Source: Armatimonadota bacterium (GTDB lineage Bacteria; Armatimonadota; Fimbriimonadia; Fimbriimonadales; Fimbriimonadaceae). Taken from it: 64,000 nt of DNA. Every line of letters starts with the position of its first letter. Positions within the stretch are counted from its first letter, which is position 1. Below are positions 5,764 to 54,999 of this stretch, one piece after another. Position numbers and translations under genes: made by a program. The stretch is taken from positions 186,001 to 250,000 of the forward strand of contig JAEURN010000006.1 of assembly GCA_016789105.1 (NCBI GenBank). Reading direction: 5' to 3'. The notes below the pieces were generated by a model that saw only the letters and a list, made by a program, of their open reading frames with translations, was not told the origin of the DNA and made no database searches.

Positions 5764-6766
5764 CCTCCTGGTTGCCCAGCAGTTGCTGGTTCAAGAAAGA
5801 GGTTTGGGTGGCAACACACTGCAGCCAAATTCGCCCTACCAGAACGCCGCTTGGGCCTCTGTCGTGGATGCTCTGGCGGTGCTGCCGGATATCAATGGCA
5901 AGCCGTTCGGCGTCGCCGTCCTCATCGACGACAGGGGCTACTTTGTCGCGCATTCGTCTAGTCTGGTTTACGAACCCCTCGTTGCAAAAATGAGCGGCGG
6001 CGCCGAAGTCAAGCTCGGGCGAATCGGATACGACAAAGAAACCCAACTCGTTCTCTTCGGCGCCCACAACTGGGAGCCGGGCAAGCGGCAGCCGGTTCGA
6101 GTTGCGCCACAGGTCAAACCGGGCGAACTCATGGTCGCCACGGTCAAGGGCCCGGTCAGAGGGATGCTCACAAGCGACAACCGCCCCGGATTGTTCTTGC
6201 CGAGCCAAAGGTTCGTCCCCCTTGCCGAAATCCAATTTGAGACAAAAGATGTCCCCGTCGGTGGCGCCATCGTTTTCGATAATTCGGGCGGTCTCGTCGG
6301 AATTCTGGGTGCGATCCTCAAACCCGACCACCCCAACCAGGGCGACGATTTCGGCAACCCGATGGGGGGCACGGGCGGCAACGCCCAGCCAGCCAAAAAC
6401 GCATTTGGACCTCAGGGCCTGACCGTTGCCTATGCTCTCGGGCCAAAGATTTTGAACCGGGTCGTAGAAGGATTTAAGAGGGACGACCACCAGGTGGAAC
6501 ACCCAAGTGTCGGACTCTTTTTCAAAGATGGGCCCGGACCGGGGCAAGTCGTTGTCGACGAAGTCACCCCAGGTAGTCCTTGTGCGTTGGCCGGGGTCAA
6601 GGCAGACGATTTGATCATGGCGGCTAACGACGTCCCGGTCGGGAACTCTATCGACTTGGCCGCACTGCTCTTTGGCTTGGAACCGGGAAGCCAACTGGAA
6701 CTCTTGATTTTCCGGGCCGGTCGCCGGATCACGGTTTCCATGACGGTTGGCGTCAACAAAGACTAA
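5744..6766 (+). CDS. HtrA-like pseudoprotease with C-terminal PDZ domain
   Basis: The 340-residue protein starts with a signal-like hydrophobic stretch, followed by a degenerate trypsin-like domain (about residues 50-195) and a PDZ domain (about 250-336, with VVVDEVTPGSPCALAGVKADDLIMAAND). Segments align with HtrA/DegP landmarks, but the catalytic positions are lost. The His site in GYFVAHSSSL is Ser72, the Asp site in DKETQLVLF is Gln101, and the Ser site in PVGGAIVFD is Val172. It probably binds misfolded or signalling peptides in the periplasm without cutting them. It follows a sigma/anti-sigma pair as HtrA-type proteins do in rpoE-mucD operons. ATG 5744 is preferred over GTG 5711 because it begins a compact signal sequence. 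Confidence 0.75.
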   Translation: MSFLAASLLVAQQLLVQERGLGGNTLQPNSPYQNAAWASVVDALAVLPDINGKPFGVAVLIDDRGYFVAHSSSLVYEPLVAKMSGGAEVKLGRIGYDKETQLVLFGAHNWEPGKRQPVRVAPQVKPGELMVATVKGPVRGMLTSDNRPGLFLPSQRFVPLAEIQFETKDVPVGGAIVFDNSGGLVGILGAILKPDHPNQGDDFGNPMGGTGGNAQPAKNAFGPQGLTVAYALGPKILNRVVEGFKRDDHQVEHPSVGLFFKDGPGPGQVVVDEVTPGSPCALAGVKADDLIMAANDVPVGNSIDLAALLFGLEPGSQLELLIFRAGRRITVSMTVGVNKD

Positions 6767-8496
6767 CCTTCGGCCAACCGGAAGTCGCGCACCACCGATT
6801 TCAGCCTGACGTTGCCGTTGAAAACGTCTTCTTCAAGTTCGCAGATGAGATCCAAGACCGTGCCGATCCGAGTTGCGGCAAGCGCTTCACCTAGCCCAAA
6901 GGCCATCGCCGTGATATGCCGGCCCCCCGATTCCAACATCACCCGCGAGTGGGCGGGATTCCGGGTCGGGTTGTTGGCCGCGAGTTTGAGCCCGCGCATC
7001 AAAAATGCGGGCTGCGGATTTGCCTCGCCGAACGGCTCCAAGGCGGCAATCGCCTGGGCGGATTGAAGGGTGGCATCGGTGACCGATGCTTCTAGGTCTG
7101 CGACGACCCGCGGCAAAAAGTCTTCTGGAGACAAGCGGGCCGAGGCATATGACTCCAAAGCGTCCGAAAACGAAGGGATTTTGACCGTTTCCATGGTCAC
7201 TCCGGCGGCGGCGGCGTGACCGCCCCCTTTGATCAGCAAGGCCCGGTTTGCTTCAATCGCCTCAAACAGGTTGAACGCAGGGATCGATCGGGCCGAGCCG
7301 CTGGCCGTGTCGCCGTGGATCCCTAAAACAAAGGCTGGGCGACGGAACCGCTCCACAACCTTGCCGGCTACGATCCCCACAATCCCTTTGGGCCACCCTT
7401 CGGCTGCGATGACGATGGCCGACCTCGTGTCGAGGCCCTCGGCGGCAATCCGGTCGCATGCTTCGGTGACGATTCTGTCTTGCATCGACCGGCGTTCTTG
7501 GTTCTTGGTATCCAAGAATTGAGCCAACTGGTTCGCTTCGGCTTGGTCAGCGGTCGTTAGCAGCCGGAAGGCCACATCGGCATCGTCGATCCGGCCGACC
7601 GCATTGATCCTCGGGCCGAGCTGATAGCCGATGTGGCGGGTTGTGAGCTTCATGCCAGGGTCATCCAATTTGCTCACGCCGAGAAGCGAGCGCAGACCCC
7701 TCTTTTGGGTTGCTTGGATGGCCGGCAGGCCAAACCGGGCGATGACCCGGTTGTTGTCGCGGAGGGGCATTACGTCCGCCACGGTGCCCATCACCGCCAA
7801 GTCCAAAAAGTTTTGGTAGAAGTACTTTTCCTCAAGGCCCAACTCACGGCACAGGCCGAGGCAGACGAGGAAGGCGATTCCGGCTCCCGAAAGCTCCTTT
7901 CCAGGCCCATCGAATCCGCGTCGGTGGGGGTTGACCACGGCTTCGGCCGGCGGCAGTTCTTCCGGGCATTCGTGGTGGTCGGTGACCACGACCTTCATGC
8001 CAAGTTCATAGGCCGCCGCTAACTGGGTGTGGGCGGATGACCCACAGTCGCAGGTGAGCAAAAGTTTGGCCCCGGCGGAATGGGCCCTGCGCACTGTGTC
8101 GATGTGGATGCCATACCCTTCGGTTTCCCGGTGCGGCACATGGCCGATAACCTGGAACCCGGCCTTGGAAAGGAACCGGAACAAGATCGCGGCACTGGTG
8201 ACCCCGTCGACGTCGTAGTCGCCATGGATGTAAATGAGGTCGCCTGATTCCCTTGCAGCGAGCAACGTGCCGACGGCTTGACGGAAATCTGGCAAGTCCT
8301 CTGGCCGAGAGAGGTGATCCAAAGACGGGTTCAAAAAGCGGTCGGCTTGGCCAGGATCGCAAAAGCCCCTCTGTGCAAGCAGAGAAGCCACGAGGGGATG
8401 GACACCCAATTCCTGCTCGAGCCGGGCAGACGCTTCCGGGTTGCGCGGCAAGAGTTCCCAAATCGAAGAGGGTCCATCGGGCACCATAGCATTCAC
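6763..8496 (-). CDS. recJ: Single-stranded-DNA-specific 5'-3' exonuclease RecJ
   Basis: The protein has the DHH phosphoesterase motifs of RecJ: HGDYDVDGVTSAA (motif I), LTCDCGSS, and VVTDHHECPEELPPAEAVVNPHR (the DHH motif), then the DHHA1 region with KGGGHAAAAGVT. The length of 577 residues is typical. RecJ degrades single-stranded DNA 5' to 3' in recombination and mismatch or base-excision repair, using Mn or Mg. The listed start is a GTG, and ATG at 8487 three codons later is an equally possible start. It converges with the PDZ gene with a 4-base overlap. Confidence 0.93.
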   Translation of the reverse strand: MNAMVPDGPSSIWELLPRNPEASARLEQELGVHPLVASLLAQRGFCDPGQADRFLNPSLDHLSRPEDLPDFRQAVGTLLAARESGDLIYIHGDYDVDGVTSAAILFRFLSKAGFQVIGHVPHRETEGYGIHIDTVRRAHSAGAKLLLTCDCGSSAHTQLAAAYELGMKVVVTDHHECPEELPPAEAVVNPHRRGFDGPGKELSGAGIAFLVCLGLCRELGLEEKYFYQNFLDLAVMGTVADVMPLRDNNRVIARFGLPAIQATQKRGLRSLLGVSKLDDPGMKLTTRHIGYQLGPRINAVGRIDDADVAFRLLTTADQAEANQLAQFLDTKNQERRSMQDRIVTEACDRIAAEGLDTRSAIVIAAEGWPKGIVGIVAGKVVERFRRPAFVLGIHGDTASGSARSIPAFNLFEAIEANRALLIKGGGHAAAAGVTMETVKIPSFSDALESYASARLSPEDFLPRVVADLEASVTDATLQSAQAIAALEPFGEANPQPAFLMRGLKLAANNPTRNPAHSRVMLESGGRHITAMAFGLGEALAATRIGTVLDLICELEEDVFNGNVRLKSVVRDFRLAEG

Positions 8497-54124: not shown

Positions 54125-54130
54125 TATAAT
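54125..54130 (+). promoter_or_regulatory. -10 box TATAAT of the riboswitch transcript
   Basis: TATAAT lies 7 bases before the aptamer region, giving a transcript start near 54137. No clear -35 is seen. Confidence 0.65.
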
Positions 54131-54137
54131 AGGGGGA

Positions 54138-54251
54138 CGTCGAATCTGGGCCGAGCCCAGAACGGGGGAACCGAAACCCACAGGGGGTGAAGGGCATAGG
54201 GATATGCCCAGGTCGTTCTTGAACCTAACCCGGCAGCTAACCTCGTAGGCG
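54138..54251 (+). ncRNA. c-di-AMP riboswitch (ydaO/yuaA type)
   Basis: The sequence contains the conserved ydaO blocks in order: an early hairpin (TCTGGGC/GCCCAGA, 54145-54161), ACGGGGGAACC, GGGGGTGAA, a second hairpin (GGGCAT/ATGCCC) and, near the 3' end, CGGCAGCTAACCTCGTAGGCG-like sequence at 54231-54251. The closing stem CGTC (54138-54141) pairs with GGCG (54248-54251). The family binds two c-di-AMP molecules and usually turns genes off when c-di-AMP is high, often K+ transport or wall genes. Here the controlled transcript encodes two small proteins. No clear terminator follows the aptamer, so control may be at translation. Confidence 0.9.
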
Positions 54252-54265
54252 CAATCAAGAAAGTC

Positions 54266-54328
54266 ATGAATAAACAAATCCGAACCCGCATGTTCGTCGT
54301 TCTGGAGGGCACTCCATGTCTTTTGTAA
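54266..54328 (+). CDS. Possible 20-residue leader peptide
   Basis: An ATG just after the aptamer opens a 20-codon frame (MNKQIRTRMFVVLEGTPCLL) that overlaps the start of the next gene. It has only a weak AAGAAAG upstream, so it may be chance or may take part in translational control by the riboswitch. Confidence 0.2.
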   Translation: MNKQIRTRMFVVLEGTPCLL

Positions 54329-54594
54329 GCCAAATCATGCGCAAAGCCAGCATCGTCGAAAGGAGTGATTCTCCTGTCGATGAAAAGGTCGATCGGTTTA
54401 AAGAACTGGTTGACGAAGCCGGCACCATCCGTGACCGCATGGAGGCTTCTTTCACCCGGCTTTCGGCCAACGAGATGGAAACGCTGGGCCCGGGCCGCAG
54501 GAAAGAGATCGCACAACTGACGGAAACAATCCTGAAACTCAAAACCAAACGAACAGAAATGATCGGGGATTTGGGCAAGGAAACGATCCACTGA
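54316..54594 (+). CDS. Small helical protein downstream of the c-di-AMP riboswitch
   Basis: I do not recognise this 92-residue protein. It is highly charged and helical (DEKVDRFKELVDEAGTIRDRMEASFTRL ... GRRKEIAQLTETILKLKTKRTEMIG), suggesting a coiled coil, and has no membrane segment or cysteine. A GGAGGG ribosome-binding site precedes ATG 54316 and partly sits in a small GGAG/CTCC hairpin. It is the first gene after the riboswitch and lies 24 bases before an Acb2/Tad1-like gene, so both are probably regulated by c-di-AMP. Confidence 0.6.
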   Translation: MSFVSQIMRKASIVERSDSPVDEKVDRFKELVDEAGTIRDRMEASFTRLSANEMETLGPGRRKEIAQLTETILKLKTKRTEMIGDLGKETIH

Positions 54595-54618
54595 CGCCGG
54601 CAATAGGGGGCAAAGGCA

Positions 54619-54930
54619 ATGAGCGAGAACATGGAGAAGTTCCGCCACCTCGACGGGAGCTATGCGACTGTCGAAACGGAATTTATCAAAATCCAATTCC
54701 AACACGGGTCGCCCGACGAATCTGGCATCAACGGATGCCGGGTGGAGGATGTGATTGGCATCCTCCAGGAAAAGCTTCTCGATTTCCAAGGGCGGGAACT
54801 TGCTTGCGAGGAGAATGCCACTGCCCTTTACCACCTCGACCTAGCGAGGGAAGCCCTGCTCTTGCGCAGACGCCGCCGGGAAAACCAGGGGGTGGTCGGG
54901 TCGATGAACCGGCACCTCTCGCGAGACTGA
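54619..54930 (+). CDS. Acb2/Tad1 hairpin-domain-like protein, possible cyclic-nucleotide binder
   Basis: The 103-residue protein matches from memory the pattern of the Acb2/Tad1 hairpin family of phage anti-defence sponges: FQHG at 27-30, GINGCRVEDVI at 37-47, a central amphipathic helix, CEENATALYHL at 63-73, then a basic Arg run and QGVVGSMNRH at 90-99. Phage members carry corresponding VNGxxxEDxI, CRENAxAL and RGVEGT motifs and bind cyclic di- or trinucleotides. Here the family-typical Glu of GVEG is Val. The gene is chromosomal, with no phage genes near, and lies in a transcript headed by a c-di-AMP riboswitch. The assignment has not been verified by a search. Confidence 0.6.
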   Translation: MSENMEKFRHLDGSYATVETEFIKIQFQHGSPDESGINGCRVEDVIGILQEKLLDFQGRELACEENATALYHLDLAREALLLRRRRRENQGVVGSMNRHLSRD

Positions 54931-54999
54931 TTTTTGTCTGACCAGTGGAGTAAAGGATGGGCGTCCACATTGGGCGCCCGCCTTTCGATTGCATGGCTG

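Follow-up and report, generated by a model that had tools for sequence, protein, structure and literature searches.

A c-di-AMP riboswitch ahead of a host-encoded Tad1-type gene in the Fimbriimonadales

On the chromosome of an Armatimonadota bacterium of the family Fimbriimonadaceae, a c-di-AMP riboswitch precedes two small genes, the second of which (ORF2) belongs to a new host branch of the Tad1/Acb2 family of phage sponges. What is new here is the arrangement itself, a riboswitch ahead of an acb2-like gene, which recurs in three separate parts of the tree of this gene. Sponges of the Tad1/Acb2 fold serve phages and prophages in counter-defence: Tad1 (Thoeris anti-defence 1) and Acb2 (anti-CBASS 2) belong to a hairpin family that forms hexamers with cyclic nucleotide pockets, and they bind and sequester the nucleotide without degrading it. 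By analogy with these proteins, the host branch may act as a sponge as well. Our preferred reading, to which we assign a probability of roughly 0.45, is that the host chromosome carries here an operon responsive to c-di-AMP, whose ORF2 binds this messenger or a cyclic dinucleotide close to it, likely as a sink or buffer.

The locus lies in a stretch of 64,000 nucleotides, hereafter the window. The original prediction had placed the feature at 54125-54930, which is correct to within a few bases, and had described a ydaO-type aptamer controlling an Acb2/Tad1-like protein outside any phage context. We confirm this observation, while the interpretation of the circuit as a feedback buffer is partly supported. 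A missing fold match, a sub-threshold ydaO score and signs of prophage debris were each looked for, and none of the three was found.

The riboswitch, its transcript and related loci

The aptamer scores 67.7 bits with RF00379 against a gathering threshold of 38 (cmscan, E 1.5e-13, model positions 1-134) and carries the conserved blocks GGGGGAACC, GGGGUGAA and CAGCUAACCUCGUAGGCG, which bears out its assignment to the ydaO type. It is the sole over-threshold cmscan match in the whole window, and RF00379 was matched only once in the genome, at this locus. The features of the transcript are collected in Table 1.

Table 1. Features of the riboswitch-ORF1-ORF2 locus, in window positions
Feature	Position	Strand	Basis or description
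c-di-AMP riboswitch aptamer, ydaO/yuaA type, complete	54128..54266	+	RF00379, cmscan
Small hairpin TGGAG-GGCA-CTCCA	54303..54316	+	Sequence and folding
ORF1, 92 aa, first gene of the transcript	54316..54594	+	Predicted three-helix protein
ORF2, 103 aa, host-encoded Tad1/Acb2-type protein	54619..54930	+	PHROG_2428, PDB profile, Foldseek
Terminator-like hairpin, 10 pairs, 3' of ORF2	54958..54980	+	Consensus scan only

Between the aptamer and ORF1, a terminator scan and folding revealed no clear intrinsic terminator with a U-tract. The small hairpin at the end of the leader masks the Shine-Dalgarno sequence of ORF1 together with the first base of its start codon, and similar pairings over the Shine-Dalgarno sequence were seen by eye in several leaders of the genus. 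This hairpin is a possible translational expression platform for ORF1. Folding of the leader for the ON and OFF states gave inconsistent answers, with no ligand-dependent alternative to the hairpin seen. To our knowledge, neither a small helical protein nor a Tad1-like protein is among the known targets of c-di-AMP riboswitches.

The two genes are separated by 24 bp. ORF2 differs from its orthologue in another genome of the genus (G007) at 24/12/68 first, second and third codon positions, and ORF1 differs from a genus orthologue at 16/10/46, a pattern of purifying selection. Because these differences concentrate at third codon positions, both ORFs are real coding genes. The terminator-like hairpin downstream probably marks the end of the riboswitch-ORF1-ORF2 transcript; the consensus scan returned four such hairpins in the region, with 1.8 expected in shuffles. 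The operon is flanked upstream by a divergent alpha/beta hydrolase gene, whose position is conserved in the genus, and downstream by an epimerase-type gene and an apparent sugar ABC transporter.

ORF1 stands ahead of the acb2-like gene in all eight genomes of the genus, at 66-83% identity. Its first 17 residues (MSFVSQIMRKASIVERS; window positions 54316-54366) are invariant in six genus sequences while the remainder varies, and they possibly form a functional N-terminal helix. The AlphaFold model (pLDDT 92.0) places helices at residues 3-16, 21-47 and 51-91. No family in Pfam, NCBIfam or PHROGs exceeded its cut-off for ORF1, and a Foldseek search returned no significant match. An assignment as a phasin was considered and rejected, with all Pfam and TIGR matches sub-threshold.

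The search of related genomes also gave a first look at the c-di-AMP regulon in the Armatimonadota. Many c-di-AMP riboswitches of the Fimbriimonadales have as their first downstream gene a member of an apparently undescribed family of helical proteins (~95-110 aa, consensus MLTExEVRRxxxxIxxSxxxPxRKARxLLxLAR...). An HMM placed the family after the switch at roughly two dozen of the inspected loci, 21 of them recorded individually, and at two loci (L031 and L070) two genes of the family stand in tandem. An iterative HMM joined ORF1 to other riboswitch-linked small helical proteins, and ORF1 agrees with the helical family in position, size and helix layout. Its sequence scores do not rise above decoys: a genus-free profile gives ORF1 5.8 bits versus 10.2 for the best shuffled decoy, and the hhalign probability is 3.9, so that we do not claim membership. 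At six other loci, judged by eye, the switch precedes an apparent hisB (imidazoleglycerol-phosphate dehydratase), and several of these continue with an apparent hisH, an arrangement that would link histidine biosynthesis to c-di-AMP. By the same inspection, the switch at two loci precedes an apparent ECF-type sigma factor with a putative anti-sigma factor behind it, and other switches precede apparent transporters.

Kinship of ORF2 with Tad1 and the presumed ligand pocket

Sequence comparison and the predicted model indicate that ORF2 is a true Tad1 relative outside the present Pfam model, and it is closer to Tad1 than to Acb2. ORF2 matches PHROG_2428 with an E-value of 1.7e-17; control searches with the hairpin parts of CmTad1 and CbTad1 reach this PHROG at 2.6e-34 and 9.4e-29. 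The three PHROGs retrieved by ORF2 also come up, ranked alike, for CmTad1. A phmmer search of the PDB with ORF2 found gp184 (1e-5), CmTad1 (2.1e-5) and CbTad1 (3.9e-4). With a profile built from 32 host relatives, the match to CmTad1 reached 2.3e-14 and that to CbTad1 1.3e-9, and gp184 (8y6v) was matched at 1.3e-10 over its C-terminal 70 residues.

The motifs quoted in the original prediction are present as GINGCRVEDVI, CEENATAL and QGVVG, and its call of an Acb2/Tad1-type protein was sound. Its expectation of a match to PF24729 failed, as neither ORF2 nor any of the 32 relatives reached the curated Pfam cut-off. This cut-off, 27, is narrow even for proven Tad1 stretches (29.2 and 35.9), which marks the model as a weak one.

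The AlphaFold model of ORF2 (pLDDT 80.8) shows short N-terminal strands followed by an antiparallel helical hairpin, as in Tad1. When compared with the PDB by Foldseek, the top 20 matches were all Tad1 chains, the best being CmTad1 (E 9.1e-5, TM 0.62). Among viral models, proteins named 'Acb2/Tad1 hairpin' were among the best matches. VIA-align gave CbTad1 a Z of 7.8 over 88 residues, versus 6.3 over 49 residues for the first unrelated row, and T4 Vs.4/Acb2 (7uq2) a Z of 5.2 over 53 residues.

At the sequence level, the presumed Tad1 pocket is conserved in the host clade. Ten positions are invariant in the 32 host sequences (G36, N38, G39, E43, Q57, E65, N66, R83, R87 and Q90), which range down to about 50% identity. 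ORF2 residues F56, N66, R83 and R87 align with F82, N92, R109 and R113 of CbTad1 (PDB chain numbering runs one higher), which we take to be contacts of the bound nucleotide. Position 56 is variable, with H in six and Y in five of the host sequences; the other three residues are common to CmTad1, CbTad1 and gp184.

This conservation bears on the reading of ORF2 as a diverged scaffold, which would have kept the hairpin and lost nucleotide binding, with the riboswitch link reflecting osmotic or envelope stress. Such a loss would accord with the genomic contexts of most copies, which are unrelated to c-di-AMP, and nucleotide binding by this clade is itself a prediction from sequence. However, the presumed ligand positions N66, R83 and R87 do not vary across the host sequences and are those of the phage proteins, and we regard a binding-deficient scaffold as improbable, the least probable of the alternatives apart from a prophage origin.

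Host inheritance and recurrence of the riboswitch link

The acb2-like gene is present in 44 of the 101 relatives, in 53 copies. A profile search of 291 Armatimonadota genomes found it in 67, all of which belong to two Fimbriimonadales families (f1 and f5), with no carrier elsewhere among these genomes. Genus g20 contributes about twenty carriers, mostly with a single copy. Named records with relatives, retrieved by a contig scan for the one exact peptide pattern NGC[RS][IVL]EDVI, come from Fimbriimonadaceae and other Armatimonadota. One contig, JADZEW010000008.1, is titled Methanoregulaceae archaeon isolate SJ84 and is a Fimbriimonadaceae contig, probably from a mislabelled or mixed MAG.

All but one of the eight genomes in the genus carry two copies, copy a in the present operon and copy b elsewhere. 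Where inspected, copy b sits behind a GH38 alpha-mannosidase gene, an arrangement that recurs in several other genera; in the present genome it is riboswitch-less and lies at G000:C2:204905-205210. The same gene order was recorded for riboswitch-less copies at 12 loci across genera, often continuing with a response regulator, a 375-aa protein without a name and a zinc dehydrogenase. At five further loci, one of them in genus g20 (G050), the acb2-like gene lies upstream of a DUF423 gene, with a protein of ~350-480 aa between the two in some and absent in others.

Taken together, ORF2 is a vertically inherited chromosomal host gene. A prophage remnant or recent phage cargo would explain why the relatives found outside the Fimbriimonadales are phage proteins. 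A single-sequence scan of viral contigs with ORF2 gave no match, and an alignment-based scan gave ten relatives. Phage relatives, however, share 34-47% identity with ORF2 among the matches listed, against 47-80% for chromosomal relatives across dozens of species. The flanks are conserved as well, both around the operon within the genus and at the GH38 locus in several genera, the plasmid search found no match, and the genes around the operon in the window serve transport and metabolism. Prophage debris was rejected on the chromosomal locus, the order-wide distribution and the conserved synteny, leaving a phage origin of this copy highly improbable, in agreement with the original prediction that no phage genes surround it.

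RF00379 was found in 65 of the 101 relatives, with one to five matches per genome. Comparison of coordinates places it upstream of the acb2-like gene, on the same strand, in all eight genomes of the genus (G000-G007, copy a) and in six others (G014, G017, G018, G024, G031 and G045), so that the linkage proposed for checking in related genomes is indeed conserved. In G018 and G045 the acb2-like gene follows the switch with no other gene between; in the other linked genomes, one or two short ORFs separate them, and those of G017, G024 and G031 encode other small helical proteins.

A tree of 48 copies puts those with a riboswitch into three groups: the genus; G017, G018, G031 and G045; and G014 and G024 among unlinked kin. 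The link requires four changes on this tree, at least three of them forced by well supported branches, versus 12.2 in shuffles. If a genome has one to two switches among 2,500-3,000 genes, rough arithmetic gives a chance riboswitch link for a given gene about once per thousand, and the three linked lineages are therefore not explained by chance. The riboswitch is lacking from 39 of the 53 copies; around 20 of the riboswitch-less copies, no weaker RF00379 match appeared at E 0.1. Since most copies have no riboswitch and adjoin unrelated genes (GH38 mannosidase, M14 peptidase, DUF423), c-di-AMP control of acb2-like genes is not universal.

Proposed role and comparison with known systems

The messenger itself is expected in these bacteria. 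A diadenylate cyclase (PF02457) is encoded in 98 of the 101 relatives, in the present genome at C8:399710-400060, together with a PgpH-type PF07698 protein. Three DHHA1 proteins are also encoded; the one inside the window (6763-8496, minus strand) resembles RecJ by length and motifs, as judged by eye.

In the proposed mechanism, the aptamer would sense c-di-AMP and thereby set the yield of the two small proteins. ORF2 would probably assemble as Tad1 does and hold c-di-AMP, or a cyclic dinucleotide close to it, in the conserved pocket, its likeliest role being to take up free c-di-AMP as a sink or buffer. The cell's own messenger would then control the amount of its presumed binder, resembling ktrAB and kimA of Bacillus, where c-di-AMP both sets the dose through a riboswitch and binds the protein directly (PMC10284832).

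The sign of this circuit matters for its behavior. The c-di-AMP riboswitches known so far are OFF-switches, as in Bacillus (PMC6488665, PMC10284832). An OFF-switch joined to a sponge would yield positive feedback, with the protein made at low c-di-AMP and lowering c-di-AMP further, hence a latch and not a buffer. The feedback buffer of the original prediction would require an ON-switch.

In favor of c-di-AMP as the ligand, Acb2 is reported to bind 3',3'-cAA with high affinity (review, PMC12043709). Several observations weigh against it. Tad1 binds cAA only weakly (PMC12043709), and Acb4, another viral sponge, excludes c-di-AMP (PMC11722364). The many copies outside riboswitch control and the substitution of F56 in 11 of the 32 sequences count in the same direction. 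On balance, binding of c-di-AMP or a close relative, as buffer or receptor, appears most likely.

The receptor form of this idea deserves separate weight. ORF2 would here be a c-di-AMP effector acting on a partner, either ORF1 or a target elsewhere, with the riboswitch adjusting the dose of the receptor. It would follow the dual-control logic of KimA/KtrAB (PMC10284832), and would account for the constant place of ORF1 or other small helical proteins ahead of the gene; conservation along the entire helical hairpin also exceeds what a sink seems to require. However, G018 and G045 have no gene between switch and acb2-like gene, and the characterized members of the fold are sponges. We consider a receptor unlikely, although it is the strongest of the competing explanations.

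A third possibility is that ORF2 sequesters immune nucleotides, such as CBASS cyclic oligonucleotides or the cADPR isomers of Thoeris, and so dampens the cell's own defence, with c-di-AMP merely reporting the state of the cell. ORF2 shares its fold and presumed pocket with Tad1. Furthermore, a CBASS-type cyclase domain, PF18144 (SMODS), occurs in nine of 61 relatives, and eight of the nine also carry an acb2-like gene, versus about 30 of the 61 overall; this mild skew (P about 0.01 by hand) is uncorrected for, and confounded by, kinship. Nevertheless, PF18144 is not matched in the present genome or in six of the eight genomes of the genus, which still carry the gene, mostly in two copies. It is also widespread in a single genus, g20, and the recurrent c-di-AMP switch would be left unexplained. 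Some domestication against defence signals is possible; as the main role of ORF2, we judge it doubtful, slightly ahead of the scaffold.

Returning to the c-di-AMP sink or receptor, we tentatively propose, with less confidence than in the operon reading, that in the Fimbriimonadales a chromosomal Tad1-type protein acts on the cell's own c-di-AMP as a sponge or receptor, its dose set by a c-di-AMP riboswitch, and that this housekeeping branch could resemble the stock from which phage sponges came. This would suggest a part for the sponge fold in ordinary bacterial signalling as well. With a host branch tied repeatedly to a c-di-AMP sensor, the origin of phage sponges becomes testable, as does the question of whether bacteria adjust a free second messenger through stoichiometric sequestration. 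In Panoptes, a sponge alters the cell through lowering the free cyclic dinucleotide (PMC12657218), and a sponge encoded by the host would represent the physiological equivalent of that case.

Among known systems, Tad1 is the closest to ORF2. The Tad1 proteins (CmTad1, 8kbb-8kbd; CbTad1, 7uav, 7uaw, 8smd, 8kbe and 8kbf) share PHROG_2428 with ORF2, its predicted fold matches theirs over 77-90 residues, and the positions of F56, N66, R83 and R87 are common. In contrast to Tad1, ORF2 is a host gene under riboswitch control, with a shorter N-terminal part (about 25 residues) and 26-35% identity. For Acb2 (7uq2), the hairpin match is no better than that of unrelated helical rows, and the sequence match is not significant. 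The phage protein gp184 (8y6v) has 230 residues with a C-terminal Tad1-like domain, whereas ORF2 is a host protein of 103 residues. KimA and KtrAB of Bacillus subtilis are potassium transporters, whereas ORF2 is a presumably soluble, predicted nucleotide-binding protein. With other RF00379 switches, the locus shares a complete, over-threshold aptamer and differs in the genes that it regulates and, perhaps, in a translational expression platform.
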